Under the pieces are notes generated by a model. The model saw nothing but the letters and a program-made list of their open reading frames with translations, did not search any database and was not told where the DNA came from. 64,000 nt of DNA from Flavobacterium aquicola (GTDB lineage: Bacteria > Bacteroidota > Bacteroidia > Flavobacteriales > Flavobacteriaceae), in contig NZ_QUNI01000016.1 of NCBI RefSeq assembly GCF_003385115.1, positions 1-64,000 of the forward strand, written 5' to 3'. Shown here in pieces: positions 10,701-38,040 of the stretch (positions are counted from its first letter, which is position 1; each line of letters begins with the position of its first letter). Both the position numbers and the translations under genes were made by a program.

Positions 10701-13700
10701 GTTACCCAAATCATATAAGCAACTTCTTAGCTTGTAATCCTTAGATAAATCAAAAGGTTTCTTCAGATAGCCCGCTATATTACTTTCTAATAATAATTCA
10801 TCTGATACAACTTCTTTATCCAATGACCATTCTTCTGCACTGACAATTTCTTGATAACCGATTCCATCTTCTGAAAGAAGTACAGTTCGCAATACCTCAT
10901 GACGAGAAATAATTTGTTGTAATGTTTGTTCTAATATCGATACGTCTAAAGATCCTTCTAAACGAAGAACTACAGGTATATGATAATCTGTACTGCCTTG
11001 CAACTTATCCAAAAACCATAATCGCTCCTGGCTGAAGGATAAAGGAATACGAGTAGGACGATCCTGTACGACAATCGTAGGTAATAAAATCCCTTCGGAT
11101 TGGGCGGACACATAAGTTCCCAATTTAGAAACCGTAGTATGTATAAAGACTTCTCGAATAGAAACCTCTATCATCAGCTCCTTACGGATCATAGAAACTA
11201 AACGTGTTGCTAATAAACTATGACCTCCCAGTTCAAAGAAATCGTCATGGATGCCGACTTTTTCAACACCCAATAACTCCTGCCATATATTAACAAGTTG
11301 TAATTCTAAATCTGTAGTTGGCCCAACATATTCTTCACTTGATAACTCTGAGCTATCAGGATCTGGCAATCCTTTTTTATCTAATTTTCCATTACTGTTT
11401 AATGGCATTACATCTAATGCGATCCAGATCGTAGGAATCATATATTCAGGTAAGCTTAGTTTTAATTGATTTTGAAGACGCTCCTTATCTAATTCGCCTT
11501 CTAATACCACATAACCTACTAAACGTTTTGTACCATTTATATCTTCTCTTGCTAATACACTGCATTGGGTAATCCCAGGTAATTCTGATAATGCGTTCTC
11601 AATCTCACCTAATTCTATACGATATCCACGAATCTTAACCTGATCATCTTTTCTACCTATAAATTCCAAATTCCCATCGGGTAACCAACGTGCTAAATCA
11701 CCAGTCTTATACATTTGCTCTCCTTCTTTAAAAGGATTCGCTACAAATTTTTCACTGGTTAATTCTTCCTTATTTAAATAACCTCTTGCTACTCCCGCTC
11801 CGCCAATACATAGTTCGCCAATTACTCCTATAGGCACCAATGATTCAAAAGTGTTGAGTATATAAAAACTATTGTTCCATAAAGGTTTACCAATCGGAAC
11901 ATTAATTAAGCCATCAAGACTCTCAACATTATCCGTTTCAAAATAAGAGCTATCTATGGTTGTTTCTGTGGTTCCGTAACTATTAATGATTCGCATAGCG
12001 TGACCAAATCTGGTATACACTGTTTTAAAGTCATTAATACTGCATACGTCAGATCCTAAAATTAACAACTTCATCCAAGCGTAATCTAACTTTTGCTCGT
12101 AGATGTAATCCATCAATGGAATCACTAAACCTGGCGTACCTTCTAATATAGTAACACCTTTTTCTAAAATAAGGTCATAAAGTCTGGCTGGATCCAACCT
12201 AAAATCTGAAGGACAAAGTATCATTCTGCCTCCAAATAATAAACTTCGGCATAAATCCCCTGAAAACACATCAAAAGAAAAACTTGCCATTTGTAATAAG
12301 CAAGTATCACTATCCAAAGAGTAAGATGACTCCCAACATAAAGCTATATTTAATAAGCTCGTATGATTAATAATAACTCCTTTGGGTCTACCTGTAGAAC
12401 CTGATGTATAAATTACATAAACAGACTGATCTGCTTTGACAATAGAATCAACCTTACTTAATGGTTGTTCACCTATTGACTTCCAATTGTCATCTATTGT
12501 AATAATTTGTATTTTCTTGTTTTTGGCAACTAAAAACTCATGTGCCTGATCTGTTATAAAAAAAACGGCATTACTGTCTTCAATTATGTAATGAATGCGA
12601 TCTTCAGGATACTCAGTATCTATAGGGACATAAGTTCCACCTGCTTTCAAAACACCAAACACCGCTATAATCATATCAAAAGAGCGATCGACACATATGC
12701 CAACTAAATCTTCTGATTTTAGTCCTTTATGGATCAAATAATGTGCTACTTGATTTGATTTTTCATCTAATTCTTTATACGTTAATTCCTCATTTCCAAA
12801 AACAACTGCTATACTATTCGGCATTTGCAATACCTGTTCTTCAAATAAATCAACTATCGTTTTATCTTTTGGATACGATACTTCTTTATCATTAAAATAC
12901 TGTAGTTGTTGCTCTTTTTTATCTTTAGATAACAATTGTATATCTTCTATACTGCCTCCATCGCCATCGCTTTCAATGATTTGATTTAAGATAAATTGAT
13001 AACAATCTAAAATATCTTCTGCCAGTTCATTACTTAGAAAAGATTCTCTGTAGTCCAGAGAAAGAACTAAATCTCCAGATTCCTCAATGGCATTAAACAT
13101 TAAGTCAAAATCGCTGTAAACTGGTTTATTATGTACTATATGTAAGTCTACACTTTCCATATCAGTATTGGAAGCACTAACATCAAAATTAAAAATAACA
13201 TTTACCCAATTATCATACTTTATATCCGTTTCTTTTTGGAGTAATTCCATAAAATTAGCATACGGATATTCTTGATGCTCATAGGCTTCATATATTCTGT
13301 TTTTTAGATCCTTTACATATTCTATTAAAGAATCTTTGGAATTATGAGATATTAAGAATGGCATAAAATGAGAGAAATCTCCAATTGCTTCTTCTATATC
13401 CGGCATGGTTCGGCCACCTGCAGGTATACCAATAATAACCTCATCTTTCTCACATATTTTACATACTAAGAGTTCGAATGCAGACAAAAATGTCATGAAG
13501 AGCGTTAGGTTTTGCTGACTGCTCCATTTTCTGTACCTCAGAATATTTTCTTTAGGAATACGTAAAGAAACTGAATTACTTGCGTTCCCATATTTTGATA
13601 AACTGTTATCAAATGGAAGTGTTATATAAAAAGATTTTTTAGAAAATTTATTTATAAAATAGTCTTCATGAACCTTCCAATCATCATTGTTCAGGTTGTT

Positions 13701-16700
13701 TTTCAACCATTTTGTATATTCATAAAAACCAACAGCTTGCACTAAATCAAGTTTTTTTCCCTGAAATAACGAATTGTAATTATCTACAACCCCTTGAATA
13801 AATAAAGCACAAGACCATCCATCTGCTATTATATGATGCATCGTCACAATTAAAGTACTCTCTTCTAAAGAAAACTTTATTAACTGTAACCGTACAAAAG
13901 GCCCGTTGGTAAATGAGAATGCCGTACGCATGTTTTCATTAACTAAAGCTTTATAAGCCTCTTCTTGTTGATTTAATCCATCCTTTGAAAGATCTATTTC
14001 TTCTATTGGTAAAGTAATGGATGGATCAAAAATTAAATGCTCTCCATCTACTGATACCCGAGTTCTTAAAATACTGTGATTATCTATTAAATTATGTATT
14101 GCCATTTTCAGCAATGATGCATAAATTTTACCTTTCATCTGTAAGCTGAAAGATTGCGTATATGCTAAGGATCTTTCCGGGTCAATCTGATGAAGAAGAT
14201 TAAACTTCTGTTGTGTTAAAGTCAAATTAACCTTAGAAATATTTGATTCCTGCACATCATAATCAATAACCTCCAGGGACAAACTCTTTTCTTGAGAAAT
14301 ATCAGAAGAAGTATAAACCAGTTTAGCACATTCTGTAATTCCTTTGTATAATTCTTCTATATCTTCATCAGAATGTGCAAATGAAAGAAAAAGATTATTA
14401 GATTCCCATACATATATTCCTCTTTGAACCAAATGGAAAGCTAATAATTCGAAATTCGCTTTGTATCTAAATGAAAATAGAGATCCAAAATATACCATCA
14501 TCATGGGTAGTGATTCCTTTTCGAAATAACTGTTCAATCGGTTCATTAAAGAAGCCGTTCTGTTATTGAGTTCCAGATATGCTTCTTTACCAATTTCATC
14601 AATACGGGTAAGCACCGCTTTTGATGCTGCCATAGTTAATGGATGTCGTGTAAAAGTACCTGCAGTAAATGTTTTGTCTACTTCAGGATAGGATTCATCT
14701 CCAAACTGCCAACGACCACCATCTACAGCATCCAGATATTTTGGTGAACCGGCAACAATTCCAATTGGCATTCCTCCTCCGGCTATTTTACCATAAATTA
14801 CAATGTCGGCTTTCATATCAAAATACTCTTGAGCTCCTCCGGGCATGATTCTAAAACCAGTCACCATTTCATCAAATATGAAAGGAATATCTAATTCTTT
14901 AGTTAATTCGCTAAGCTGATGTAACAATTCTTTTGGCTGAGAATCAGGAAACCTACTTCGTACAGGCTCTACTAATATCCCTGCAAGATCGTCTTTGTGT
15001 GCGCGTATTTGTTCTAGAATATCGTCATCAGAATAATTAAGGATAATTAAATCTTTAACCATATTTGCTGTTATTCCTGCCGATAAAGATTCTACAACAT
15101 TTTCTTGATCACCTTGAACTCCAAGTGTTATTTCTCCATGTCCGTGAAAAGAGGCCGAAAAAACGATGATTTTATTCTTTTTTGTAACAGCTCTAGCTAT
15201 TCTCAAAGCAAAAGAAACAGCTTCTGTACCTGTATTGGTTAGGCAAACTCGCTCAGCACCAGTTAATTTGGACACTAATCTTGCAATATCTCCAGACAAC
15301 TTATTCATAGGGCCAATAATCATACCCTGACTATGCTGTTCAAGAATTGCCTTAGAAATAAATTCTGGTTGATGACCAAAAATACAGGAGCCAAATCCCA
15401 TCACTATATCAATGTATTTATTTCCATCAATATCTGTAAAATGAGAACCAAATGCATGTTCACTCACTATTGGGTAAACCATTTCTTTTGTGGCAATGTT
15501 GAACTTATAAGCAGAGCGATAATCCGCTAAAACAGCTTTGTTTTCAATAGCAAAAGACTTTGATTTCTGGGTTTTAGCGGTATAACTCTCTATTAATTGC
15601 GGTAATTGTTCTTCTTGGTTTTTTGGTAATTTTTGAAAATAAAAGCTTTTACTGCCAAATGATCCTGGCAGGCTAACTTTTTCTTTAGTTGTTATTTTTT
15701 TTTTTACGATATCAAATATGTTCGTACTTTTAGAAACCTCAGCAAATGCTTCTCCCGTTGTATGTTTATCAGTATTTTGTGATGTCCTGGAGGTGTTTAA
15801 AAACTCAGAAATTATCTGATTTTGTTGTGACAGTATACGATTCTGCTCAGCAAATTGTTCTCTTATTATAGTAAATTCTGTAATATCAATTGCGGTATTT
15901 TCAATTACTTCTTTTACCGGTGTTTTAATATAGTCAGCAGTCGATTTATTTATTATTTCTTCTCCATTATTTGAATGTCTTCCTGTACCAATCTCACCAT
16001 TTGAACTTGCCCTAAAACTACAAGAAGTATTCGTGTCAAATGTCTTATTAACCTCTACATGATTATCAGATACGACTTCTGTTTGCCCCGTTTCCTGAAT
16101 AATGTATTTTATAATTGCATCCAAATTCGTTAAATCTTCAAACATCTTTCGGATTGGAAGTTTCACGTTGTATTCTTTACGTATCTTATTTATGATTTCC
16201 ATCAAAGAAAATGAATCTGCACCATAATTCAACAATGGTCTATGCAGCTCTATTTCTTCAATTTTCATCTGTAGCGTAGCTGAAATTGTATTCTTTAAAA
16301 AATTCTCTATATCTTTAAAAATCATGCTTTCTGAAAAATCTTTATTATTAGTACTAGAGATTGTATTTGATTCTTTGGAAATAGTAATTTGTTCTTCTTC
16401 TATCCAAAATCTTTTTCGTTGGAATTTATAAATTGGAGCATTTACTTTTACAACATCTTTATTAGAATAAAATGATTTCCATTGTACATCTCCTCCTTCT
16501 TTATACCATTCATTTAGACTTTCTAATAATTGCAGGTTCTCATTTTTACCTTTTCTAAAAGAAGCTAACCACATTGTTTTATCAGCTCTCTCATCAGATA
16601 TACATTGACTTCCCATATTGATTAAAACAGGATCTGGTCCTATTTCTACATACACATCAACTTCTAAGTTCTCTAATGACTTCATACCCTTTAAAAAATC

Positions 16701-19700
16701 CACCGGAGAAGTAATATGATCTACCCAATACTGTGAGGTACTTATTTCCTTACCTGCTACAGTTCCTGTTAGATTACTAATTACTATACATTTGGGAGAT
16801 TGAAAGTGAATAGTATCCGCGATTGCTTTAAATTCAGAAAGTATAGGCTTCATCATTGGAGAATGAAAAGCATGGGAAACTCTTAATTTTTTCCACTTAA
16901 TACCTTTTAAAGATAATGCACTTTTGATAGACTCTAAGGCTTCTTTTTCTCCTGACAATACTATTTGATTAGGAGTATTAATTGCTGCAATGGTAACTTT
17001 TTCTTTATAATGATTCAATATTTCGGAAATAGCTTCTTCATTAGATCGTACCGTAATCATCTCTCCTTCAAGTGTAATTCCTTGCATAAGACGCCCTCTA
17101 GATGCTACCAATTTAAGACCATCTTCTAAAGAAAACACACCTGCTACACATGCCGCTACGATTTCTCCTATACTATGCCCTATTAGTACAGTAGGTGTAA
17201 TACCCCAATGCTCCCAAAGCTGATATAGTGAATATTCTACGGCAAATAGTGCAGGTTGTGTGTATTGGGTTTGATCTATAAATTTGGCTTTTTCACTTCC
17301 TTCCTCTGCAAATAAAACAGTAATTAAATTTTCATCTAAATGAGCTTTTAATAACTCTGTACATATATCCAAAGCTTTCTTAAAAACTGGTTCAGTATCA
17401 TATAACTCCTGTCCCATTCCTAGATATTGAGAACCTTGCCCCGTAAATAAAAAAGCTGTCTTTAACGATCTTGTTTTCTGAAATGAGCTATTTTCCTGAT
17501 TTAATTTTTGAAGTAATTCTTCTTTATTTTCAGAAATTATTCCTAACCTATTTTCAAAGTGATCTCTGTGTACTGATAAAGTGTAAGATAAATCGCTTAT
17601 TTTTACTTCTGGATTATTCTCAATGTAATCAATTACCGCAACAACTTGGGCTTTTAGTGCTTTTTCTCCTTTTGCAGATATTGTAGTCAGCACTGTATTT
17701 TGAGAAGAAATCGTATCGTTTTGTTTTTTTGCATGATACACGGGAGCTTCTTCAAGAACTATATGTGCGTTTGTTCCTCCAAACCCAAAAGAACTTACTC
17801 CTGCCCTGCGTATGCTATTCTTTTTTTGATTCCATTTTAATAAATCATTAGGAATTAATACATTCAATTTTTCCCAATTGATATATCTATTAGGCTTATT
17901 ATAGTGCAGTTGTTTCGGGATTATAGAATGCTGTAGACACAAAAGTGTCTTAATTAATCCCGCAATTCCCGCAGCTGCTTCTAGGTGACCTATATTACTT
18001 TTTACAGATCCTATTATTAAAGGACTGTCTGCATCTCTTTCTTTATTAAATACTGTATCTAGTGCATTAATTTCTATTAGATCTCCTAGAGATGTTCCTG
18101 TACCGTGTGATTCTATATAATCAACATCTTTTGAGTGTAATCCTGCAGATTTTAATGCAGCTTGTATTACCTCTTCCTGAGCCAATCCATTTGGAGCAGT
18201 TAATCCATTACTTCGGCCGTCTTGATTAACAGCGGATCCTTTAATTACTCCTATGATATTATCTCCATCTTCTATAGCTTTTGATAACGGTTTTAATAAT
18301 ACTAGTCCAGCACCTTCACTTCTTACATATCCATTAGCTGAATCGTCAAAAGTTTTACATCTGCCGTCTGCCGCCATCATACTAGACTGTGATAATGCTA
18401 CTGTAGACTCTGGTGTTAATATAAGATTTACTCCTCCCGCGATAGCCATAGTACATTCTCCACTCCGAATATCCTTTATAGCCAAGTGTATACTTACCAA
18501 AGAAGACGAACAGGCCGTGTCAATAGACATACTAGGTCCTTTTAAATCGTAATAATACGATAGCCGATTGGAAGCTATACTCAATGCCGATCCAGTTCCC
18601 GAATACATATCTTTAGGATAGTTTTTGAGTAAAGATGCATACTCATTTTGAAGAATACCAATATATACTCCAGTCATTGACGCTTTGAGTTCTTTTGCAG
18701 TATATCCTGATCTTTCTAATAATTCATGAGTCAATTCTAATAAAATGCGTTGTTGAGGATCCATAAATTTAGCTTCTCTAGGAGATATCTCAAAAAAAGA
18801 AGCGTCAAATTCATCTATAGCATCAATAAAACCTCCCCAGCGTGTATTCATTTGGTAACCATCAATTTCTTCTTTACTGCTGAAGAAATTATCAATTTCC
18901 CATCGGCTCTTTGGTACTTCTGTAATAGAATCTGTTGCTGATTTTAAATTTTCTAAAAATGTTTCCAGATCTTGCGCGCCTGGAAAACGACAAGACATAC
19001 CAATAACTGCGATTGGTTCTGAGTTCAATATTTTTTCTTCCTCAACATTTGAAGTTGATTCAATATGTTCATTAGATACTAAATATGCCACCAGATCCTT
19101 TATATTTGAATAACTATACACAATTGTTGGTGTTATTTCTATCCCCAAATAGTCAGACAATTTTCCTGTGAGTCTTATACTTTGTATAGAACTCATACCC
19201 AATTCTGAAAATGAAGTATGTGCATTGACATTTAATATGCTTATGTTTAGTTCTGCTGCTACTGCTTCTCGCAAAAACTTTTCTAAATCACTGAGTAATA
19301 TTGGCGCTTTTACTACAATATCTTCCTGTGGGTTTTTAGTAGAATTATTTATACTTTGACCTCTTTCCCATTGATCCATTACACCATCAATAGTATCCGA
19401 CTCATATAAAATTTTAGTAGCTAATCGCTTAATTTTTCCGCTGGAAGTTTTTTCAACTTTTCCTGGTTCTACCAATACAATTGCATATATAGATAATTCA
19501 TGTTGCTCAAATACACTATCAATTATACTTTTTACAATGAAATTAAAATCATATCCCTTCATTGAAGTTCTTTTAATTTCCTGAACAATGACCAATTGTT
19601 CTTTTCCTTTTGCCTCTATACAAAAAGCCACTCCTGCATTGTTTTGTAAATCAATATGCGATTGTTGTACAACACGTTCTATATCTTGCGGAAAATGATT

Positions 19701-21131
19701 TACCCCATTAATGATCATGAGTTCCTTTAAACGACCTGTTATATAAAGTTCTTTATCGTTTAAAAAACCCATATCTCCTGTACGCAAATACTCCTCTTTG
19801 TATTCCTCTAAATTTGCATCCGAATTTTGAATTCGTGCCTGAAAAATATCTTTAGTTAATTCCTCTCTTTGCCAATAACCTTTAGCAACACTGGCTCCAC
19901 TAATCCAAATTTCACCTATTTCATTTTCCTGACATATCATTTTAGTATCAGGATTTACTATTTTAATTTCTAACTCTTCTAAAACTGGTCCATTACCTAT
20001 AAATTCAATAATATTAGATGTTTTATCTTCTTTATCGAAAAGTTTTACTTCTCCTGAATGAAATTTTTCTTTATCTAATAATAAAGATTTGGGTATTGAA
20101 TTAAAATTAGAACAGCTAACTATTAGGGTAGTTTCCGCCATCCCATAACATGGAATTAAATACGTTTCATCAAATCCAATAGAACTGAAACTAGTACTAA
20201 AATTATTTATGGTTTCTGGTCTAATTGGTTCTGATCCATTGTAGGCTACTTGCCAACTGCTTAAATCCAGCCCTTTTAAATCCTCTTCTTTAATTTGATT
20301 AGCACATAAATCATATGAAAAATTTGGCCCCCCACTAAAAGTCCCTCTATAATCTGAAATAACTTTTAACCATCGAATAGGTTTTTGTATAAAAGCGGTT
20401 GGTGGCATAACAATCATTTCAAACCCTACATATAAAGCTTGAAGAATATTTCCTATTAGTCCCATATCGTGGTAAATAGGTAACCAACTAACCCCTATGC
20501 TTTCAGAATTTTGATGAAAACAGTTTTTCATCAATTTATTATTATGCACAATATTAGAATGTGTAACCATAACACCTTTTGGATCACCTGTTGACCCAGA
20601 AGTGTACTGAAGAAACGCAGTATCTGTTGGTAATACAATAGGAAAATCTTTATCCAATAAATCAACTAACACATTGGTTTGCAACCATTTTATATTTGCA
20701 AAAATTTCAGTATCAAACCAACCACTACTCTTAGTATATACACTCTCTATAGTCAGAATAAGAGTAGCTTTACAATCAGCTACAATATTTTCTAATCTGC
20801 CTATTCTTCGTTTTCCTTGTGGTGGAAAAGCTGGAACCGCAATTACACCTGCCAGGAAACAGCCTAAAAAAGCGTCAATAAAATCTAATCCTGATGGATA
20901 TAAAAGTAAAACACGATCTCCAGGTTTTGCATGTTCCAATATATGAGATGCAATACGTTTTGCGTTATCATATAAATCCTGAAAGGTCCTGTAATCACTT
21001 TCTTCTTCTCCATTTTCTAAAAATCTATAAATAACCTTATTTGGAGTTTGGCTAATATGATTACTTAAAACTTTAACTAAGGTTTCTTTCGAAGTTATAT
21101 CTTCTGGAATAGTAGATTTTATTAGCGACAT
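1512..21131 (-). CDS. Hybrid PKS-NRPS synthetase for a beta-amino fatty acyl lipopeptide (6539 aa)
   Basis: This giant multidomain assembly-line enzyme has these domains (approximate residues): fatty acyl-AMP ligase 1-600; ACP1 (pantetheine Ser ~648); KS 705-1131 (Cys874 in DTACSSS, plus HGTGT and NIGH); AT 1224-1580 (Ser1320 in GHSIGE, HAFHS typical of malonyl-CoA); ACP2 (Ser1640); a low-complexity linker with a Gln-rich coiled coil; class III aminotransferase 1850-2275 (PLP Lys2115); then C-A-PCP, C-A-PCP, dual E/C-A-PCP and C-A-PCP (PCP serines 3305, 4352, 5439, 6483). Every carrier and catalytic motif checked is intact. The order FAAL-ACP-KS-ACP-aminotransferase-C is that of the iturin/mycosubtilin starter proteins, which load a fatty acid, extend it by malonate and transaminate the beta-ketone. 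Here the AT is in cis. It is the sixth gene of a co-directional cluster, and 2 nt separate it from the aminotransferase gene upstream. Confidence 0.96.
4707..7931 (-). other. NRPS module 3 (dual E/C-A-PCP), predicted threonine
   Basis: These are residues ~4401-5475. The condensation domain starts [17 protein letters not shown] and carries an N-terminal HH...GD motif ([11 protein letters not shown]), the hallmark of dual epimerisation/condensation domains, plus the regular HHLVMDH active site near residue 4575. It should epimerise the aminoacyl group on PCP2 and then condense it. The A3 pocket reads D F W N I G M V H K, identical to the threonine code I remember. PCP serine is residue 5439. 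Confidence 0.8.
7932..11096 (-). other. NRPS module 2 (LCL C-A-PCP), predicted isoleucine
   Basis: These are residues ~3346-4400. The C domain carries [13 protein letters not shown] and HHIASDGWS of the LCL class. The A2 pocket reads D G Y F L G V V Y K, nine of ten matches to the isoleucine code known from bacitracin synthetase. The nucleotide-binding motif is the variant [14 protein letters not shown] serine is residue 4352. The following module begins with a dual E/C domain, so this residue is expected to be epimerised. Confidence 0.75.
11097..14249 (-). other. NRPS module 1 (C-A-PCP), predicted ornithine or diaminobutyrate
   Basis: These are residues ~2295-3345. The condensation domain has HHIIADGWS near residue 2432 and is the most divergent C domain of the protein, as expected for one that takes a beta-amino acyl donor. 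The pocket residues of A1, read by alignment to GrsA positions, are D V G E I G S I D K. That matches the ornithine code I remember and is one residue away from polymyxin-type diaminobutyrate codes. The neighbouring diaminobutyrate-type aminotransferase makes Dab a real alternative. PCP serine is residue 3305. Confidence 0.75.
14292..15674 (-). other. Domain: class III PLP aminotransferase embedded in the assembly line
   Basis: These are residues ~1820-2280. The domain resembles glutamate-1-semialdehyde aminotransferase: [15 protein letters not shown] for cofactor phosphate binding, FDEMVTGFR with the PLP-contacting Asp, and [10 protein letters not shown] with the Schiff-base Lys2115. In mycosubtilin and iturin synthetases the equivalent domain converts the ACP-bound beta-ketoacyl chain to a beta-aminoacyl chain, whose nitrogen is then acylated or cyclised. 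The same reaction is inferred here from domain order. Confidence 0.87.
16062..19034 (-). other. Domain block: ketosynthase, malonyl-type acyltransferase, ACP2
   Basis: These are residues ~700-1690. KS catalytic residues are present (Cys874, the His of HGTGT, the His of NIGH). The AT has GHSIGE and the HAFHS signature that usually means malonyl-CoA rather than methylmalonyl-CoA. ACP2 carries GADSF with Ser1640. No KR, DH or ER domain lies between AT and ACP2, so the beta-ketone should survive until the following aminotransferase acts on it. The cis AT is a difference from iturin-type starter proteins, which use a separate acyltransferase. Confidence 0.88.
19047..21131 (-). other. Domain block: fatty acyl-AMP ligase and ACP1 (loading module)
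   Basis: These are residues ~1-695 of the synthetase. The adenylate-forming domain has [12 protein letters not shown] near residue 175 and the YGMAETT and RTGDMG motifs. Its overall form is that of FAAL enzymes, which make acyl-adenylates and pass the acyl group straight to an ACP without CoA. The ACP has GMSS in place of the usual GxDS around the pantetheine serine. The block should activate a free fatty acid as the starter; chain length cannot be read from the sequence. Confidence 0.88.
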
Positions 21132-29433: not shown

Positions 29434-30012
29434 TTATATCAATAAAATCCTTTCCGTAATTGTTTTATTTGAAGAAGTATCAATTCCGGTAACTTCGGCA
29501 TACTTTACATTGGGTAACCAAAAAGAACCTCCTTCGATACGTACAAATATTTTTTCTACCTGAATTTTTTTCTGATTTACATTTACAAAAACATGATATT
29601 TTTGATCTGAATCTATCTTTTTTAAAGTTAACGGCAGCTTTTTGTACGAAACAAACTGAAGTTCAAACTCCTCATTATTTACTGTTTTACTTTGTATTCC
29701 GTAGGCAAATTTGCGCTGTACATAACTAAAATCTTTTTTTTCTCCTTTCTCAGCGTATCGAATCCAATACGCTTTTATAGGATTGCTTTTGTCTATTTTT
29801 CCATTTTCCTGGTAATTTATAGCATAAATAGCAGTGTTTATATTAGGATCACGCTGAATATAAAACAGCATATTATCTACATTTTTAGGCGTTGGAAAAT
29901 GTAATGGCGACGGATTTTTGGATTGTGCCAATACATTTTGTGAAATCATATTTACTAAGACCGCTATAACGATTAGTAATTTTGTGAAATATTTAAATGA
30001 TAATTTATTCAT
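29434..30012 (-). CDS. DUF4833 family exported protein
   Basis: This 192-residue protein has a signal peptide (Lys-containing start, hydrophobic LLIVIAVLVNMIS, cleavage near VLAQS). The mature part begins FPTPKNVDNMLFYIQRDPNINT, which matches the Bacteroidetes DUF4833 family as I know it. Function is unknown; the family often sits near lipid head-group genes, as here next to a CDP-alcohol phosphatidyltransferase and GtrA. A 211-bp spacer holding a palindromic repeat separates it from GtrA, so it may be the last gene of the operon or have its own transcript. Confidence 0.7.
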   Translation of the reverse strand: MNKLSFKYFTKLLIVIAVLVNMISQNVLAQSKNPSPLHFPTPKNVDNMLFYIQRDPNINTAIYAINYQENGKIDKSNPIKAYWIRYAEKGEKKDFSYVQRKFAYGIQSKTVNNEEFELQFVSYKKLPLTLKKIDSDQKYHVFVNVNQKKIQVEKIFVRIEGGSFWLPNVKYAEVTGIDTSSNKTITERILLI

Positions 30013-30092
30013 GACGAAATATTTGTAAACTTAATTAGATTCTTAATTGTTTTCTTTTTTTGATTATTGTAAAAAAGCAGAAAGTTATCTCT

Positions 30093-30170
30093 CAGCCCCG
30101 ATAGAAGCGACATCCTTTCCTGCCGGGGTTCGGCAGGAAAGATATAGTGGATAGCGGGACCAATCTTCCT
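30093..30170. repeat. Flavobacterium-type intergenic palindromic repeat
   Basis: The segment begins AGCCCCGATAGAAG and ends near GATAGCGGGACCAATC. It contains a 10-bp perfect stem TTTCCTGCCG / CGGCAGGAAA (30116-30140) with loop GGGTT, inside an outer CCCG/CGGG pairing. I recognise this family from many intergenic regions of Flavobacterium genomes; the attribution is from memory. It could act as a terminator or mRNA-end stabiliser between GtrA and DUF4833. Confidence 0.7.
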
Positions 30171-30223: not shown

Positions 30224-30655
30224 CTAATTTGATTCGATTACATTCTGTTTTTCATTTACTCTAAAAACCCAATATTTAATCAGTGGGTAATTAAATCCAT
30301 AAGAAACAAAACTGTCTGTGATTAATCTTCCGATTCTATAATCGATTTGAAATACTTTCTGCAGAATAAGCGTACCAGATGATTTTAAGGAAATACTCCC
30401 TAATACCACCAGCGCGAACTTAAAAAGCTGACTATTGATGTGGCTGCTATAACCCGATTGATTTTTAAATACCCAAAATCTATTGATGCTGAAATTGATA
30501 ACTGCGCCAACAGTTCCGGAGATTAAAATAGAAAAGGTAAAATGCAGTTTAACTACTTCTGTAAATACAATCATTAAACCATAATCGGTAACTCCGCCTA
30601 AAAATGCAGCAACTTGTGCCTGCAGAAAAGTGTAAATGGACTTTTTCCTAGGCAT
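30224..30655 (-). CDS. GtrA family membrane protein
   Basis: This 143-residue protein has four predicted membrane segments and the GtrA pattern (FLGGVTDYGLMIV, NFSINRFWVFKN). GtrA-like proteins are thought to move lipid-linked sugars or related polyprenyl intermediates across the inner membrane. Its start overlaps the last 8 nt of the CDP-alcohol phosphatidyltransferase gene, so the two are translationally coupled and probably act on the same lipid or glycan. Confidence 0.85.
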   Translation of the reverse strand: MPRKKSIYTFLQAQVAAFLGGVTDYGLMIVFTEVVKLHFTFSILISGTVGAVINFSINRFWVFKNQSGYSSHINSQLFKFALVVLGSISLKSSGTLILQKVFQIDYRIGRLITDSFVSYGFNYPLIKYWVFRVNEKQNVIESN

Positions 30656-31343
30656 AACGGTCTGGGTTTTGATCTCTTATATCACCCAATTTTAAAAGTT
30701 TTATGCTGTCAGCAATATTGATTATCAGTAATAAAACTGTTATTAAGCCAGCCAAATAGGTAATTGATCCATGAAAAACAACTTCTAAAATCAGAATTAA
30801 AGCAATAATAAATCGAAGTTCTGTTGGACCAACAAAGCCGGAATCGATACTGTATTCATTTGTAATTTTGTAACGCAGTTGACTGATGATGATCGACCAG
30901 CCATACAATGCAACAAAAGCAAAAGCTATCATTTTTGTGCCGTTTTTAGCATAAATATAGTAGCCAAAACCTATGAATACAATACCAATCCAATCGGCAA
31001 TAATATCGAGTGCAAAACCATACCAGCGTCGCGGAATATTTCTGTAATAAGCCAGTCTTCCATCTAAAGAATCACCTAACCAATTTACAGCCAAACCGAT
31101 AATACCCAAAAGCAGATACCAATTTGCTACATAAGTTCCTAAAACAAAACCTAAAAAAACCAATCCCGAACCCAATGTACCTAGCAAAGTGAGTACGTTG
31201 GGCGAAATGAATTTAGGCACCTTTGGAAGTAAAAATACAATCGTTAACTGTTCTGCTCTTTTTAAAATATTAGTCCGCTTACGATCTGAGAATGTCCTTT
31301 GTACAATTGCACTATAATCTGCAGTCTGTGTTTCTGTTCCCAT
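30648..31343 (-). CDS. CDP-alcohol phosphatidyltransferase family protein with altered motif
   Basis: This 231-residue integral membrane protein has about six hydrophobic segments. The signature region reads DSLDGRLAYYRNIPRRW, then GFALDIIAD. It keeps all four Asp and both Gly of the family motif DxxDGxxAR...GxxxDxxxD, but Tyr replaces the conserved Arg. Family members transfer a phosphoalcohol from CDP-alcohol to a second alcohol at the membrane. The substrate cannot be told. It begins at TAATG, sharing a base with the stop of a small upstream ORF, and overlaps GtrA downstream. Confidence 0.85.
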   Translation of the reverse strand: MGTETQTADYSAIVQRTFSDRKRTNILKRAEQLTIVFLLPKVPKFISPNVLTLLGTLGSGLVFLGFVLGTYVANWYLLLGIIGLAVNWLGDSLDGRLAYYRNIPRRWYGFALDIIADWIGIVFIGFGYYIYAKNGTKMIAFAFVALYGWSIIISQLRYKITNEYSIDSGFVGPTELRFIIALILILEVVFHGSITYLAGLITVLLLIINIADSIKLLKLGDIRDQNPDRYA

Positions 31344-31470: not shown

Positions 31471-32277
31471 TTACTTAACAATTCCAGCAAAACGCTGATA
31501 GAAAACCGTTGGACTATTCTCATTTTTAGGAGCATATTTTCCTGCTATAATTGGAATATAAATCACTCTCCTTCTGCTTTCTTCACCACGAATAGATGAT
31601 TCTGCAACCCTGTGCCACAAACGGCCATCGTGAATGGTTAAATCTCCAGCTTCTGGATTGATAGCAATTTCCTCTGGGTCGGCATTATGATCTAAAAAGT
31701 ATTTTTTACGAAAAAGCATTTGATAAAGACTCTGCTTGTGAGTCCCCGGAATGATTTTAAGACCACCATTTTCGGGTTTTAAAGTACTTAAGTGAATACC
31801 TACATTTAGCATCGGGTTTAATTTTGCACCATAAAAAATATCTCTCAAACCATCTGTATGCCAGCCCATTTTGGCAAACTTACTTTCTGGTCCATTGATA
31901 TAATGATTGAAAACCATTCCGTCTTTTTCTTCGGTGCCTAATCTTGCTCCCTCGCCTGCCAATGGCAATAAACCATCCAATCTTGGATCAAGTAAAAGAC
32001 CGCTTAAGGTTTGATGATGCTGATTGATAAAAGCAAAACGCTGTACAATAGGAGAACCATCTAAATCTTTTCCGTATTTAATTGGAACGCCATTTACTTT
32101 TTCAAGGTTATTGTCAATCCATTTTTGCTCTACTTCTTTCGAAGCATCAATAATAGATGTAACAGTTTCGGGATTTATAAATTTTTTGAAATGGATGAAG
32201 CCATGTTGGTTAAAAAAGGCAATTTGCTCATCAGTTAATTGTTCTGTAAGTGTAAATTTTTTATAAGAAGATATCAT
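31471..32277 (-). CDS. PhyH family Fe(II)/2-oxoglutarate dioxygenase
   Basis: This protein of about 268 residues starts MISSYKKFTLTEQL. It has the metal triad: His-Thr-Asp in GWHTDGLRD and the distal His in DGRLWHRVAES, followed by Arg residues for 2-oxoglutarate. The frame stays open 40 codons further upstream, but that extension (Ala/Cys-rich) is the shifted-frame image of the leader peptide region, so 32277 is chosen. The substrate is unknown; PhyH enzymes hydroxylate lipids and other small molecules. It heads the operon with the small ORF, phosphatidyltransferase and GtrA, and is preceded by a poly-Cys leader ORF and a good promoter. Confidence 0.85.
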   Translation of the reverse strand: MISSYKKFTLTEQLTDEQIAFFNQHGFIHFKKFINPETVTSIIDASKEVEQKWIDNNLEKVNGVPIKYGKDLDGSPIVQRFAFINQHHQTLSGLLLDPRLDGLLPLAGEGARLGTEEKDGMVFNHYINGPESKFAKMGWHTDGLRDIFYGAKLNPMLNVGIHLSTLKPENGGLKIIPGTHKQSLYQMLFRKKYFLDHNADPEEIAINPEAGDLTIHDGRLWHRVAESSIRGEESRRRVIYIPIIAGKYAPKNENSPTVFYQRFAGIVK

Positions 32278-32329
32278 GATAAATAGATTTAATAAATGAA
32301 ATAATGTGTTTGTAATTTTATCTAAGGGA

Positions 32330-32377
32330 TTAGCAGCTGCAACAGCAACAACAGCGCATCCGCATCTTTGCGTGCAT
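32330..32377 (-). CDS. Poly-cysteine leader peptide (15 residues) upstream of the PhyH operon
   Basis: The small ORF reads MHAKMRMRCCCCCSC followed by TAA, so six of its last seven sense codons are Cys. It lies 63 nt downstream of the predicted start site of a strong Bacteroidetes-type promoter and ends 52 nt before the PhyH start, the geometry of a translated leader. Consecutive Cys codons would make translation sensitive to charged Cys-tRNA. Poly-Cys leader ORFs are known as cysteine-responsive attenuators in mycobacteria; a similar role here is inference. A GC-rich self-complementary stretch (GCAGCTGC) lies at its 3' end. No clear terminator is visible between it and PhyH. Confidence 0.65.
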   Translation of the reverse strand: MHAKMRMRCCCCCSC

Positions 32378-32446
32378 TCCGCTTTTAGTAAAACCAAATA
32401 TTTTTCTTTTATTATACATACTCTATCGAATTAGTAGAACTTTAAG

Positions 32447-32475
32447 CAAAAGTAATATAATTTTCCTTTCGCAAA
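32447..32475 (-). promoter_or_regulatory. Promoter of the poly-Cys leader/PhyH operon
   Basis: On the minus strand TTTG (32475-32472) is followed after 17 nt by TACTTTTG (32454-32447). Both the -33 and the -7 elements of the Bacteroidetes consensus (TTG-N17-23-TAnnTTTG) are matched fully. The start site would fall near 32440. The promoter lies just past the stop of the upstream SDR gene, so the operon is transcribed independently. Confidence 0.65.
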
Positions 32476-32506: not shown

Positions 32507-33295
32507 TTAAATTTTATAAATCCCGGCTGCAGTTTTTTCGATGAAAGCCTTTGGCAGTATGCGGTTGGCGTAAACCGAAATGATATTTGTAAACCCCGGA
32601 ATAACTTCTGATTTTTTGCTAAACATGGCTTTTACTGCCAATTTTGCAACTTCGTCTGGCTGCATATTGAACTTTTGAGCCATTTTACCAAGAGCATCTA
32701 AACCAGCTCTTGAAGCAAAACCAGTATTAACGGGACCCGGACTAAAACAGGTTACAGATATTGAAGTCTGGGCAAGTTCAAAACGCAGGGCACGGGTAAA
32801 TGATAAGACAAAAGCCTTTGTAGCGGAATAAACAGCCAGCGTAGGTACAGCCTGGTAGGCAGCAGTACTCGATATATTTAAAATGAAGGCTTGTTTTTCC
32901 TGTGAAAGTATGGGGATTAATAAATGCGAAAGTTCTACAACTACATTCATATTAAGCTGCATCATCCCAAGCTGATCGGTTAGAGAAGAATTACTAAAAT
33001 CACCCCAAACTCCATAACCGGCATTGTTTACTAAAAAGCCAACTCGATAATTATTGGTTTTTATCCAATCGGTTACTTTTAGTGATGCATCGTTTGTCGA
33101 AAGATCAATCGATAAAAAAGGAGCATTGATTCCGTATTGAACCTGAAGGTCATCAGATAGCACTTTTAACTCCTTGTCACTTCTTGCAACCAGCAATAAT
33201 GGATACCCCTGTTTGGCCAATTCATAAGCAATCGATTTTCCAATGCCTTTGCTGGCACCGGTTATTAAGGCATACGGTTTAGTATTTTCGCTCAT
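32507..33295 (-). CDS. Short-chain dehydrogenase/reductase (DltE-like)
   Basis: This 262-residue classical SDR has the cofactor loop TGASKGIG, NNAG, the catalytic Ser in NISSTAA and the YSATK Tyr-Lys pair, with the SFTRALRFEL and CFSPGPVNTGF segments of the YqjQ/DltE-like group. It is an NAD(P)-dependent oxidoreductase of unknown substrate and probably cytoplasmic. Its gene stands alone, with a TAnnTTTG element just upstream of the start. Confidence 0.88.
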   Translation of the reverse strand: MSENTKPYALITGASKGIGKSIAYELAKQGYPLLLVARSDKELKVLSDDLQVQYGINAPFLSIDLSTNDASLKVTDWIKTNNYRVGFLVNNAGYGVWGDFSNSSLTDQLGMMQLNMNVVVELSHLLIPILSQEKQAFILNISSTAAYQAVPTLAVYSATKAFVLSFTRALRFELAQTSISVTCFSPGPVNTGFASRAGLDALGKMAQKFNMQPDEVAKLAVKAMFSKKSEVIPGFTNIISVYANRILPKAFIEKTAAGIYKI

Positions 33296-34539: not shown

Positions 34540-34974
34540 ATGTTTTCAAAAGCTTGCGAATACGGTATCAAGGCATCGATCTACATTGCCGAACAATCTT
34601 TGACTGGGAGAAAAGCGGGCTTGAAAGAAATTTCAGAAGCAATAGAATCGCCAACTGCTTATACTTCAAAAATATTGCAGCACCTCTGTCGAAGTTTTAT
34701 CATAAACTCCGACAAAGGCCCTACAGGAGGCTTTTCAATGGATATACAAAGAATGGAAAAGATAAAGCTGAGTGCAATAGTTTTTGCAATTGATGGAGAT
34801 TCAATTTACAATGGCTGTGGTTTAGGGTTAAAAAAATGTGACGAAAAAAAGCCTTGTCCTGTGCATAATCAATTTAAACTCGTTAGGGATGAACTTAAAA
34901 AAATGTTAGAAACAACTAGTGTAAAAACATTGGCTATGGATCATGAAAAAAAATTAACTTTTTTAAAACGATAA
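34540..34974 (+). CDS. Rrf2 family Fe-S transcriptional regulator (NsrR-like)
   Basis: This 144-residue protein has an N-terminal winged HTH (residues ~1-60, YGIKASIYIAEQS...LKEISEAIESPTAYTSKILQHL) and three cysteines, Cys-x6-Cys-x5-Cys, in NGCGLGLKKCDEKKPC. This is the Fe-S ligand pattern of NsrR/IscR/RirA regulators. It lies directly upstream of RIC and NO reductase, both NO-stress genes, so NO sensing through a labile cluster is the likely job. It is probably a repressor that binds the palindromes at 34473-34502 and 34990-35015. Confidence 0.88.
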   Translation: MFSKACEYGIKASIYIAEQSLTGRKAGLKEISEAIESPTAYTSKILQHLCRSFIINSDKGPTGGFSMDIQRMEKIKLSAIVFAIDGDSIYNGCGLGLKKCDEKKPCPVHNQFKLVRDELKKMLETTSVKTLAMDHEKKLTFLKR

Positions 34975-34989
34975 AAAAAAAATTAAAAT

Positions 34990-35015
34990 AATAGTGGATA
35001 TTTTTATCCAATATT
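34990..35015. promoter_or_regulatory. Operator palindrome 2 upstream of RIC-norB
   Basis: The site reads AATAGTGGATA-TTTT-TATCCAATATT. It has the same 11-bp arms and 4-bp spacer as operator 1, with one arm mismatch, and lies 47 bp before the RIC start. Having the same site twice in front of consecutive genes supports a shared repressor. Confidence 0.82.
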
Positions 35016-35061
35016 ATTCTAAAATAGAACATATTAATACAAAACTTTAAATTATAAAAAA

Positions 35062-35793
35062 ATGAATATTCAAGAAAACCAAATTATAGGCGAATTAGTA
35101 GCAAAAGACTACCGAACTGTATCAATATTTAAAAAATACGGCATTGACTTTTGCTGTCAAGGCAACAGAACCATTAATGATGCTTGTGAGGCAAAAAAAA
35201 TTGATGACAAATTAGTTGTTTCAGATTTGAATGCACTCATACAATCCAATGTAGAGAATACAATCGATTATAAATCTTGGCCTATAGATTTATTGGCTGA
35301 TTATATAGAGAAAAGACATCACCGTTATGTGGAAGAAAAAACGCTGGAAATAAAACCCTACCTAGATAAAATATGCAGAGTTCACGGAGAACGTCACCCT
35401 GAACTGCTTGAAATCAGCGAACATTTCAACGCTACTGCCGGTGAGCTGGCAAAACACATGAAAAAAGAAGAACTTATTGTGTTCCCCAGGGTACGCAAAA
35501 TGGTTCAGGCAAAACAAGAAAACTCCAAATGGGAGACACCACAGTCTGGCAGCGTACAAAACCCTATTCAAATGATGATGGACGAACACACCACGGAGGG
35601 TGACCGATTTAGAAAAATTGAAACATTAAGCAATAATTACACACCGCCTGAAGATGCCTGCAATACTTATAGAGTAACAATTGCATTACTTAAGGAATTT
35701 GAACAGGATTTACACCTTCACATTCATTTGGAGAATAATATTTTGTTTCCCAGAGCGTTAGAATTGGAAAAAGAATTGTCACAAAAAAACTAA
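35062..35793 (+). CDS. ric: Iron-sulfur cluster repair di-iron protein (RIC/ScdA/YtfE family)
   Basis: This 243-residue protein has an N-terminal ScdA_N domain (residues ~5-60, GELVAKDYRTVSIFKKYGIDFCCQG with the Cys-Cys pair) and a hemerythrin-like domain. The hemerythrin domain has His/Glu ligands in EKRHHRY, RVHGERHPEL, HMKKEELIVFP, MDEHTTEGD and HIHLENNILFPR. RIC proteins repair Fe-S clusters damaged by NO or oxidants. It lies between the Rrf2-type regulator and NO reductase and ends 9 nt before the latter, so these two are one operon. Confidence 0.93.
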   Translation: MNIQENQIIGELVAKDYRTVSIFKKYGIDFCCQGNRTINDACEAKKIDDKLVVSDLNALIQSNVENTIDYKSWPIDLLADYIEKRHHRYVEEKTLEIKPYLDKICRVHGERHPELLEISEHFNATAGELAKHMKKEELIVFPRVRKMVQAKQENSKWETPQSGSVQNPIQMMMDEHTTEGDRFRKIETLSNNYTPPEDACNTYRVTIALLKEFEQDLHLHIHLENNILFPRALELEKELSQKN

Positions 35794-35802
35794 TTAGAAA
35801 TT

Positions 35803-38040
35803 ATGAGTCAAGAAAAAAAATTATGGATTGGATTGTTATTGGTAGCGATCTTTTCCTTTGGAGTTTTAGGGTATTATGGCTATGAAATTTACCAGCAGTC
35901 ACCGCCCATTCCCGAAAAAATAATTTCAGAAAACAACGAAATCATTTTTACCGGTCAAGAGATTAAAGATGGTCAAAATGTCTGGCAAAGTATGGGAGGC
36001 CAAGAAGTAGGAACCATCTGGGGGCATGGTGCTTATGTAGCCCCAGATTGGACAGCCGACTGGCTTCATAGAGAAGCTGTTTTTATATTGAATCGCTATG
36101 CGCAAAAAGATTTCAATAAAGATTTTGATGCATTGGATAAGGAAAAGCAAGCTGCTCTAAAAATACGTCTGCAGGCCGATTTAAGAACCAATAGATACGA
36201 TGAAAAAACAAAAGCAATAACTATTTCTGAAAATAGGATTTTGGCCATTCAATATTTAAGTCATTATTATGAAGGTTTGTTTACGAATTCTCCCGAATTT
36301 GACAAATTGAGAAATGACTATGCGATTCCAAAAAATGCCATCACAGACTTAACTAAAATGCAAAAAATGAATGCATTTTTCTTTTGGGCAACTTGGGCAA
36401 CAGTTACAGAACGACCTAATTCTGATATTTCATACACGCACAACTGGCCGGCAGATGACTTAGTAGGAAACAAAGCCACCACCGATTTAATGGCTTGGTC
36501 GGGTGTCAGTATTATAACCCTCATACTATGCATTGGATTATTGGTTTTTTATCATGCAAAATCCGGTGAAGGGGAAAGTCTGCCAATACCAAAATCAGAT
36601 CCGCTCTTAAAACAAGGCATGACACCATCAATGTATTTGGTGAAAAAATATTTCTGGGTGGTAAGTTTACTTATGATTTTACAAGTGCTGTTGGGAATTG
36701 TAACTGCCCATTATGGTGTAGAAGGAAATGGTTTGTATGGCATTCCAATAGACAAATTTCTGCCTTATGCCGTAACTAGGACTTGGCACACCCAATTGGC
36801 TATTTTATGGATAGCCACAGCCTGGCTTGCAACAGGATTGTATATCGCCCCTGCAGTTTCGGGAAAAGATCCTAAATTTCAATGTTTTGGAATCAACTTT
36901 TTGTTCATAGCCTTACTCATAATTGTGGTTGGATCCATGATCGGTCAATGGTTTGGAGTAATGCAAAAACTAAACTTGGTTCAAAATTTTTGGTTTGGAC
37001 ATCAAGGTTATGAATATGTCGATCTAGGCCGTTTTTGGCAGATCTTTTTGCTGGTTGGACTTTTCTTGTGGCTGGCTTTAATGGTTCGCCCTCTCCTTCC
37101 TGTTTTAAAAAGAAAAACAGAAGAAAAAAATCTTATCATTCTTTTTCTAATTTCATGTTCTGCGATTGCACTTTTCTATTCTGCTGGATTAATGTGGGGA
37201 AGACAAACCAATCTTGCCATTGCTGAATATTGGAGATGGTGGGTAGTTCACTTGTGGGTAGAAGGATTCTTTGAAGTATTTGCTACAGTTGTAATTGCTT
37301 TCCTTTTTGTTCGTTTAGGCTTATTGAAAACAAAAACAGCCACATTGAATGTATTGTTTAGCACGATAGTCTTTCTGGCTGGAGGAATTTTAGGTACATT
37401 TCACCATCTGTATTTTTCGGGAACACCCAGTGCCGTTATGGCTTTGGGAGCTACGTTTAGCGCCTTGGAAGTAGTACCGTTAACTCTTATCGGATATGAA
37501 GCGTATCACAACTATAAACTTTCTAAAGCAACAGCCTGGGTTGATGATTATAAATGGCCTATTTATTTCATGCTTGCCGTATCTTTTTGGAATTTCCTTG
37601 GAGCCGGAATATTCGGGTTTATCATTAATCCACCCATAGCTTTGTATTATGTTCAAGGACTAAATACTACTCCTCTTCATGGTCATACCGCATTGTTTGG
37701 AGTGTATGGAATGCTGGGAATTGGTTTGATGTTATTTGTGTTAAGAAGTTTGTATAGAAATATCTCGTGGAATAACAAGCTGATTAAAACCACTTTCTGG
37801 TCACTTAATATTGGTCTGTTTTTAATGGCAACAATGAGTTTACTTCCAATTGGTATTTGGCAAGCCATTGAAAGTATCGAAAAAGGAATGTGGTATGCTC
37901 GTTCCGCTGAATTAATGCAAGACCCAGCCATGATTACTTTAAAATGGCTGCGTACCTTTGGAGATGTTCTCTTTGCAATAGGCATTGTTTCCTTCGCTTG
38001 GTTTGTATTTGACCTGACATTAAAAAACAAAAACAAGTAA
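35803..38040 (+). CDS. norB: Quinol-dependent nitric oxide reductase (qNOR)
   Basis: This 745-residue single-subunit NO reductase has an N-terminal membrane anchor and a haem-free cytochrome-c-like periplasmic domain (residues ~28-220, with GQNVWQSMGGQEVGTIWGHG). The haem-copper-oxidase-type NorB core follows. Haem and FeB ligands are visible: His329 (TWHTQ), His483 with Glu487 (HLWVE), His534-His535 (GTFHHLY) and His626/His628 (LHGHT). It reduces 2 NO to N2O with quinol electrons at the inner membrane. With the upstream RIC and Fe-S regulator it forms an NO-detoxification unit; no other denitrification genes are in the window. Confidence 0.95.
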   Translation: MSQEKKLWIGLLLVAIFSFGVLGYYGYEIYQQSPPIPEKIISENNEIIFTGQEIKDGQNVWQSMGGQEVGTIWGHGAYVAPDWTADWLHREAVFILNRYAQKDFNKDFDALDKEKQAALKIRLQADLRTNRYDEKTKAITISENRILAIQYLSHYYEGLFTNSPEFDKLRNDYAIPKNAITDLTKMQKMNAFFFWATWATVTERPNSDISYTHNWPADDLVGNKATTDLMAWSGVSIITLILCIGLLVFYHAKSGEGESLPIPKSDPLLKQGMTPSMYLVKKYFWVVSLLMILQVLLGIVTAHYGVEGNGLYGIPIDKFLPYAVTRTWHTQLAILWIATAWLATGLYIAPAVSGKDPKFQCFGINFLFIALLIIVVGSMIGQWFGVMQKLNLVQNFWFGHQGYEYVDLGRFWQIFLLVGLFLWLALMVRPLLPVLKRKTEEKNLIILFLISCSAIALFYSAGLMWGRQTNLAIAEYWRWWVVHLWVEGFFEVFATVVIAFLFVRLGLLKTKTATLNVLFSTIVFLAGGILGTFHHLYFSGTPSAVMALGATFSALEVVPLTLIGYEAYHNYKLSKATAWVDDYKWPIYFMLAVSFWNFLGAGIFGFIINPPIALYYVQGLNTTPLHGHTALFGVYGMLGIGLMLFVLRSLYRNISWNNKLIKTTFWSLNIGLFLMATMSLLPIGIWQAIESIEKGMWYARSAELMQDPAMITLKWLRTFGDVLFAIGIVSFAWFVFDLTLKNKNK

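Follow-up and report, generated by a model that had tools for sequence, protein, structure and literature searches.

The window analysed here, a stretch of 64,000 nucleotides from Flavobacterium aquicola, carries on its minus strand an operon of lipid-type genes headed by phyH. Between phyH and an upstream dehydrogenase gene lie a promoter, an operator-like element and a short cysteine-rich reading frame:

32507–33295, minus strand: short-chain dehydrogenase/reductase (SDR) gene (Pfam PF00106), upstream of the leader promoter
32472–32475, minus strand: TTTG, the -33 box of a Bacteroidota-type promoter, with 17-nt spacing to TACTTTTG
32447–32454, minus strand: -7 box TACTTTTG; TAnnTTTG or near forms in the alignments of relatives
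32422–32438, minus strand: operator-like element TCTACTAATTCGATAGA, an imperfect inverted repeat, kept in relatives and with further copies in the genome
32330–32419, minus strand: leader ORF MYNKRKIFGFTKSGMHAKMRMRCCCCCSC, 29 codons plus stop (ATG 32419, TAA 32330)
32330–32377, minus strand: 15-codon ORF MHAKMRMRCCCCCSC (ATG 32377, TAA 32330), the in-frame tail of the 29-codon leader
32339–32353, minus strand: five consecutive Cys codons (TGT TGT TGC TGT TGC), candidate stalling site
31471–32277, minus strand: phyH, PhyH-family Fe(II)/2-oxoglutarate dioxygenase of 268 aa, first gene past the leader (Pfam PF05721, E 4.3e-16)
30648–31343, minus strand: CDP-alcohol phosphatidyltransferase gene (Pfam PF01066)
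30224–30655, minus strand: gene for a GtrA-family membrane protein (Pfam PF04138), overlapping the phosphatidyltransferase gene by 8 bases
29434–30012, minus strand: gene for a DUF4833 protein (Pfam PF16117), a downstream neighbour of doubtful operon membership

The best NCBIfam match of the SDR was mycolate reductase (167.6 bits, below the cut-off of 380), and the phosphatidyltransferase weakly resembled phosphatidylinositol-phosphate synthases (NF045883, 30.2 bits, cut-off 170). Residues H140, D142 and H222 of PhyH, which we take to form the H-x-D...H motif of Fe/2OG enzymes, were invariant in 16 aligned orthologues. Comparison of PhyH with solved structures gave no match, and its AlphaFold model (mean pLDDT 36) was left unused. 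Neighbourhoods were printed for 15 of the 80 phyH loci described below. The order SDR–leader–phyH–phosphatidyltransferase–gtrA was found in 13 of these 15, the exceptions being L199, which had no phosphatidyltransferase and gtrA genes, and L207, which had no SDR gene; the SDR gene occurred in 14 of the 15. The DUF4833 gene followed downstream in six Flavobacterium and in one of nine Pedobacter neighbourhoods.

Elsewhere in the window, an Rfam search detected a Flavo-1 RNA (RF01705, 71.7 bits) at 30090–30165 on the plus strand, opposite the genes and between gtrA and the DUF4833 gene, and nothing besides. Beside the cassette, at 34540–38040 (plus strand), lie genes for an Rrf2 regulator and for Ric-like and NorB-like proteins; the cluster may serve a nitric-oxide response (all names but Rrf2 assigned by eye). 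An ORF of 6539 residues at 1512–21131 (minus strand) reads by eye as a hybrid polyketide/non-ribosomal peptide synthetase.

Direct reading of the sequence confirmed the poly-cysteine ORF on the minus strand. An earlier note on this DNA had described a promoter of the form TTTG-N17-TACTTTTG without stating the strand, and both boxes were read at 32475–32472 and 32454–32447 of the minus strand; we take this pair to be the Bacteroidota promoter consensus, and a similar layout was seen by eye in the Pedobacter alignment. The element TCTACTAATTCGATAGA begins 8 nt past the -7 box and ends 2 nt before the leader ATG at 32419. The 15-codon ORF of the earlier note exists, but the full leader has 29 codons, starting at this in-frame upstream ATG and ending ..MRMRCCCCCSC before the TAA, and the upstream-ATG form is the one conserved in nearly all relatives. 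The distance of 63 nt previously given between promoter and ORF is 69 nt when taken from TACTTTTG to the 15-codon ORF; 63 nt fits a start site approximately 6 nt further on. The leader stop lies 52 nt before the phyH ATG (32277), and both this distance and the Pfam PhyH match agree with the earlier description.

Five cysteines in a row had been judged very unlikely to arise by chance, and the counts bear this out. Among 2222 short ATG ORFs in 184 kb of the genome, the phyH leader alone contained five consecutive Cys, and Cys made up 0.96% of residues in the long frames of the window. A leader-derived pattern matched 48 places in 47 of 398 genomes of the genus, while the reversed-pattern control matched 0. 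Loci were obtained for 30 of the 48 places (18 were not read); 25 of the 30, our own included, lay upstream of phyH in an alignable region, and the five elsewhere were taken for chance matches. Conservation together with the reversed-pattern control ruled out a chance or simple-repeat origin of the leader. A second MRMRCCCC leader was also sought in the genome: the sole exact match was the phyH leader itself, and the three of seven near matches that were opened (L037, L039 and L042) lay in or across coding sequence (L039 by eye).

phyH itself is not widespread: of 60 relatives searched, four had it (counting our own genome), all with the leader. A wider scan with a PhyH alignment, restricted to one genome per species, gave 115 relatives, of which 80 loci were kept: 56 of the Flavobacterium type and 24 from Pedobacter/Sphingobacteriaceae, with phyH 80–95% identical. 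According to the NCBI taxonomy these two groups represent two classes of Bacteroidota. A Cys leader stood upstream of phyH in all 80 loci kept (79 with a first script, 80 with a looser one). Loss of the Cys run in relatives, which the earlier note had named as speaking against its reading, was thus not what we found; the operon is preceded by a short conserved ORF rich in codons for one amino acid in 80 of 80 loci.

Flavobacterium leaders were of the type MSNKRNMFNFPKxRMHANMRMC(4-9) and Pedobacter leaders of the type MSNKTNLFYFLSAPNHSPMRMCCCCA. Most had 24–30 codons, and the longest Cys run ranged from 2 to 9 in the 78 relatives counted. The leader of L207 had two Cys only (MYNKTKLFYFPAQNSSRMRMYCCGA), that of L199 (Pedobacter) was otherwise unrelated (MYYIEQHPKNNQVYLMCCCL) and still ended in MCCCL, L192 had lost the upstream start (ATA TAG) with MRMCCCCA remaining, and in L166 the open part was MHENIRMRMCCCCCC only. 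In 62 of 80 loci, those in which the ORF ends before phyH, no more than a few codons separated the run from the stop; in the other 18 the leader ORF overlapped the phyH start out of frame. The most strongly constrained feature of the leader is its stretch of Cys codons towards the end.

Codon-level evidence was gathered from 79 leaders (L199 was left out), with the run taken to extend from the first Cys through the last codon of the longest Cys stretch. Cys occupied 448 of 452 run codons, a figure inflated in part by this definition of the run, and the other four were Arg or Ser. Codon spellings were mixed (272 TGT, 176 TGC). Frame +2 was closed by stops in 78 of 80 leaders and frame +1 in 35 of 80. 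The T/C changes in TGY were silent in frame 0 (Cys) and equally silent in frame +2 (Leu), and pN/pS before the run was 0.65 in Flavobacterium and 0.53 in Pedobacter, with frame 0 not favoured over the others. The case for Cys as the selected feature therefore rests on sister leaders elsewhere in the genome.

These sister leaders were found through the element, which was kept in Flavobacterium and had the form ACTACTAAWTCTATAGA and near forms in Pedobacter. The form of the phyH relatives, TCTACTAATTNKATAGA, had three exact sites in the 5.12-Mb genome, at phyH and at two sites termed C6 and C10. The C6 site lies just past an Rrf2 gene, before a TonB receptor gene and an ABC cluster that is PstS-like and has no assigned substrate. 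The C10 site precedes metY, metX-like and homoserine-dehydrogenase-like genes and stands opposite metK with a SAM-II riboswitch (metX, hom and metK by eye). Both elements were followed by Cys-rich leaders, MQANQTKSKTVRKSNQTPNYQIIVENSIYMCCMCMC and MKTIADKIRMCCMMRNCLPACCCQK, respectively. A relaxed form, TCTACTNNTTNNATAGA, which was drawn after matches had been seen, had five exact sites, these three and two more: one between a sulfatase gene (Pfam) and a SusC-like receptor gene, the other before a formylglycine-generating enzyme gene (Pfam), with the leaders MKTFKNIHFLSMQESVSFDTLRRMYCCC (GTG start) and MIKIMAIQYISLEKRQGLLAFGIPCLMYCYCC. A Cys-rich leader therefore began 2–56 nt after the relaxed element at five of five exact sites, where the background rate of Cys leaders was 0.96% per intergenic position per strand (both directions were looked at). 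The sister leaders had Cys in common and not sequence or repeats (..MCCMCMC, ..MCCMMRNCLPACCCQK, ..CLMYCYCC and ..MYCCC).

With one mismatch allowed, the pattern was barely above its reversed control in this genome (32 versus 20, exact sites included), and 2 of the 32 places had no locus. One of the 25 one-mismatch sites scanned had a Cys leader, METLNNIFFSIKQKSSSFENFNPMCCCR (TTG start; ..MCCCR), before another SusC-like receptor gene; weak short matches at two further sites (L082 and L122) were taken for chance. Between promoter and cysH, the sulfate-assimilation operon of this genome (Rrf2, cysH, ..., sulfite reductase) carried just a degenerate element, CTAGTAAGCCGATAGGG; the operon yielded no Cys leader. 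Rrf2 genes adjoined copies of the element at L104 3942–4355 and, beside the degenerate copy, at L282 7901–8311. In L104–L107, Rfam detected one SAM and one SAM-II riboswitch, both on L105 and neither at a leader. Behind the Rrf2-linked Cys leader, at L104 7305–13118, were genes for a chromate-transporter-family protein and for an ABC transporter with PstS-like and, by eye, PstC/PstA/PstB-like components; this is perhaps a sulfate uptake system of the phosphate-transporter type.

The element was also searched for in other genomes. With one mismatch allowed, five further genomes (two Flavobacterium, three Pedobacter) had 18 sites (reversed control, 6). Cys leaders were present at five phyH sites and five others, the latter including ..YMCFCC (L208, L224) and ..MMCMC at a TonB receptor gene (L223); the remaining eight had none or weak matches. 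The other two of these five were ..MCCM.. leaders, one in each of the two Flavobacterium genomes, where element and leader preceded an amino-acid-dehydrogenase-like gene (by eye; L209, L218). In two Pedobacter genomes a one-mismatch element stood 75 and 79 nt before tRNA-Cys (L216 1592–1663 and L217 1350–1421), and these sites belong to the eight without a clear Cys leader. The exact element CTACTAAWTCKATAGA was found in 9 of 149 genomes of the family (reversed control, 0): our own, one more Flavobacterium (leader ..YMCMCC) and seven of the 147 from other genera. The exact element is rare in the family. Four of these seven elements precede cysI-like (2), cysH-like (1) or metY/sulfite-transporter-like (1) genes, named by resemblance to genes of L282 and L105 with Pfam or NCBIfam matches (the transporter by eye), and a Cys leader was found behind none of the seven. 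The element in company with sulfur genes is thus more widespread than the leaders.

Rrf2 relatives occurred in 41 of 60 genomes of the family. Of 30 Rrf2 loci, 27 were readable (the start was not found in three), and the next gene was PAPS-reductase-like in 19 of them. The element lay near the Rrf2 gene in 4 of the 27, with a sister-type Cys leader at our own locus only; short Cys-containing ORFs near L253, L261, L267 and L272 were taken for chance. CymR of Firmicutes is an Rrf2-family cysteine regulator. The likeness here consists of the Rrf2-family genes beside the element and a match of the C6 protein to the CymR model (55.2 bits), but this score is below the NCBIfam cut-off of 195, and the models for IscR and RirA give similar matches. 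The link between Rrf2 proteins and the element is thus only suggestive.

The metY leader had a more elaborate anatomy. The leader at C10 is followed by a 13-bp hairpin and a T run:

L105 6549–6710 (own genome), with L226–L251 in relatives: Cys/Met leader and intrinsic terminator upstream of metY

Of 26 metY loci fetched from the genus, 23 were readable, and in 15 of these a terminator stood behind a Met/Cys leader, as in a classical attenuator; L247, with scattered Cys and a poor hairpin, was not counted among the 15. In 11 of the 15 loci the leader tail (mostly CCAAAAG) and the 5' arm of the terminator were complementary over 7 nt or more, and in the other four over 5–6 nt, as counted without a shuffled control, and in three loci the complementarity was kept with other letters (TTACCAAA or TACCAAAA). 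A ribosome at the end of the leader would cover the tail and let the terminator form, while one held at earlier Cys or Met codons would leave the tail free. This textbook attenuator anatomy marks the Cys-codon leaders of the genus as regulatory. Further upstream of metY, L227, L233, L234, L238 and L241 carried a second leader (..MCCMM..) with its own terminator-like hairpin.

The tie of the phyH operon to sulfur and cysteine, proposed in the earlier note, is strengthened by these results: metY and loci related to sulfatases use the same element as the operon, sister Cys leaders follow that element, and the layout at metY is that of a Cys/Met attenuator. Through the shared element the operon is tentatively linked to the supply or use of cysteine.

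The RNA around the phyH leader was organized differently from that at metY. The terminator of a classical transcription attenuator was not found between leader and phyH: a candidate was detected in one of 80 loci, inside the Cys run. The cysteine-sensing attenuator proposed earlier is supported in part: the conserved Cys-codon leader in Bacteroidota stands, and the layout at phyH is not that of an attenuator in the strict sense. A 16-bp helix encloses the Cys run, and the minimum-energy fold predicted for the F. aquicola sequence contains 14 of its arm-to-arm pairs:

32383–32399, minus strand: 5' arm, inside the leader ORF before the Cys run (minimum-energy fold; pair counts in 56 relatives)
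32308–32326, minus strand: 3' arm, between the leader stop and phyH (minimum-energy fold; pair counts)

Among the 56 Flavobacterium relatives, 93.8% of cells were paired. The covariation score of the helix was 0.098, which 1 of 500 shuffles reached, and slid versions scored 0.039–0.066. Doubly changed cells numbered four (shuffles mean 1.0, with 9 of 500 reaching 4); slid versions had 3–7, so this count supports nothing. The RNAalifold consensus of 25 sequences was weak (-2.3 kcal/mol), the F. aquicola leader region folded no better than shuffles (z 0.18), and in Flavobacterium the surroundings of the phyH start had less structure than mononucleotide shuffles (mean z +1.6). No enclosing helix was seen by eye in the Pedobacter alignment; as the one candidate for an alternative pairing at phyH, the helix was seen in Flavobacterium only. 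Its position around the Cys run suggests translational control at phyH in this genus.

We propose, with a probability of roughly 0.7, that the phyH operon is a member of a sulfur regulon whose control has two layers: a binding site for a transcription factor and a leader with cysteine codons. The genome sequences document the conserved leader, the element, the gene order, the sister leaders, the attenuator anatomy at metY and the Flavobacterium helix; the identity of the regulator, stalling, the direction of control and the translational mode are inferred. Control of the promoter would come from a CymR/IscR-like regulator, probably an Rrf2-family member, bound to the element. When Cys-tRNA is ample, the ribosome would pass through the leader; when it is scarce, the ribosome would stall at the Cys run and downstream expression would rise. 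At metY this mechanism can work through the terminator. At phyH, a stalled ribosome and a second one queued behind it could hold the helix open, allowing phyH and the later genes to be translated under cysteine shortage. In the 18 loci with overlapping ORFs, run-through ribosomes would cross the phyH start and could hinder phyH directly. Opening of the helix and overlap of the start would each mean induction of phyH by cysteine shortage.

Other explanations were weighed against this one. The leader might encode a functional micropeptide rich in Cys (binding metals or thiols, or acting in trans), whose synthesis and not the rate of its translation would matter. The N-terminal half of the leader is indeed alike across the two classes (MSNKxxxFxF....MRMCCCC). 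However, a run length of 2 to 9, an ORF end that ranges from just past the run to inside phyH, the otherwise unrelated L199 leader that still ends in MCCCL, and sister leaders alike only in the content and position of Cys make this unlikely. We consider it quite unlikely that the (UGY)n stretch and the surrounding helix are an RNA or DNA element that works without translation, the ORF being incidental. UGY repeats need no codon reading, pN/pS before the run is not frame-specific and the helix enclosing the run is conserved in Flavobacterium, but against this stand the open frame 0 with its ATG adjoining the element, the stops that close frame +2 in 78 of 80 leaders, sister leaders that are Cys-rich without being repeats, and a helix that was not seen in Pedobacter.

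Elements without a leader, which occur at some Pedobacter sites and ahead of sulfur genes in other genera, would fit an operator that regulates alone, with the Cys leader as a relic or weak fine-tuner; retention of the leader in all 80 phyH loci, across two classes, renders this very unlikely. Least probable, to a degree that we regard as remote, is a nascent-chain arrest peptide, MRMCCCC, that senses a non-cysteine signal such as redox state or a metal. The MRM before the run is widely conserved, yet MLM, MLLY, TLM or ILM replace it in a number of Flavobacterium leaders, sister leaders are without MRM, and the shared element points to sulfur supply. The phyH leader is real, is conserved in two classes and, on our reading, belongs to a wider system of sulfur control; the two-layered sulfur control proposed above is the reading we retain.

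What the cassette does under such control can be approached through the lipids of the genus. A genome labelled F. johnsoniae strain CI04 contains the cassette (locus L139). In F. johnsoniae, deletion of Fjoh_2419, the gene for a cysteate-fatty acyltransferase, removes sulfonolipids, according to the parts consulted of PMC9304779 and PMC11211663. Two titles cited in PMC9304779 report more ornithine lipid in a sulfonolipid-deficient mutant and a need for a sulfonolipid-precursor enzyme in efficient gliding of F. johnsoniae. These reports and the gene types of the operon make a sulfur-sparing lipid change a fair guess and no more. In this tentative and rather doubtful scenario, cysteine shortage would induce the SDR–PhyH–CDP-alcohol transferase–GtrA cassette through operator and Cys leader, sulfonolipids would be replaced or dismantled, and the cassette would be one of several operons under one operator and many unrelated Cys leaders. 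PhyH would perhaps hydroxylate the sulfonate carbon, freeing sulfite, or a phosphate-headed lipid would substitute for the sulfonolipid. If true, such a switch would be the sulfur-sparing counterpart of the membrane-lipid change that occurs under phosphate starvation.

The Cys leader apparently lets soil and water bacteria switch on lipid-type genes when cysteine, and hence sulfur, is scarce. If this holds, Bacteroidota would gain a sulfur regulon recognizable by its DNA signature as well as a leader system that senses cysteine, unrelated leaders would have converged on one Cys-codon device under a single operator, and an uncharacterized lipid-type cassette would stand under sulfur control in a genus with gliding-linked sulfonolipids. 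With the cassette under sulfur control in Flavobacterium, the handling of membrane sulfur under starvation would be directly testable in a laboratory strain.

Within the phylum, leader-peptide attenuation of amino-acid operons is suggested for Flavobacterium psychrophilum (PMC9723704) and leader-like sORFs in long 5' UTRs for Bacteroides thetaiotaomicron (PMC7366714); the main-text parts consulted of both papers name no cysteine leaders, sulfur element or phyH. The open-licence PMC literature, as far as consulted and supplements aside, contains no recognizable description of Cys leaders or of the sulfur element in Bacteroidota. With trp/his-type attenuators the leaders share codons for the limiting amino acid, to which the metY leader adds a terminator and a complementary tail; at phyH, in contrast, no terminator was found. 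The leader ORF uORFC-8-2 upstream of cysS in Rhodobacterales (PMC8632094, in part) also has tandem Cys codons, but it differs in having two of them, an intrinsic terminator, an aminoacyl-tRNA synthetase gene as its target and a host of another phylum.

The poly-Cys short ORFs of mycobacteria (Canestrari et al. 2020, as cited in PMC9094748 and PMC13236596) are leaderless and cysteine-responsive according to the title; for the phyH leader, start site and response to cysteine are predicted from sequence. Poly-Cys leaders had earlier been predicted in mycobacteria without an obvious terminator (PMC1262725, in the part consulted), and the comparison drawn in the earlier note is apt in this respect too. 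The two systems differ in phylum, in their targets (cys genes there, a lipid-type cassette here) and in the operator-like element present here. Both place a short ORF ahead of an operon, with consecutive Cys codons close to the stop (at phyH, at the stop or a few codons before it in 62 of 80 loci), and neither has a conserved terminator. By this analogy, the mycobacterial poly-Cys leaders are the closest known system.
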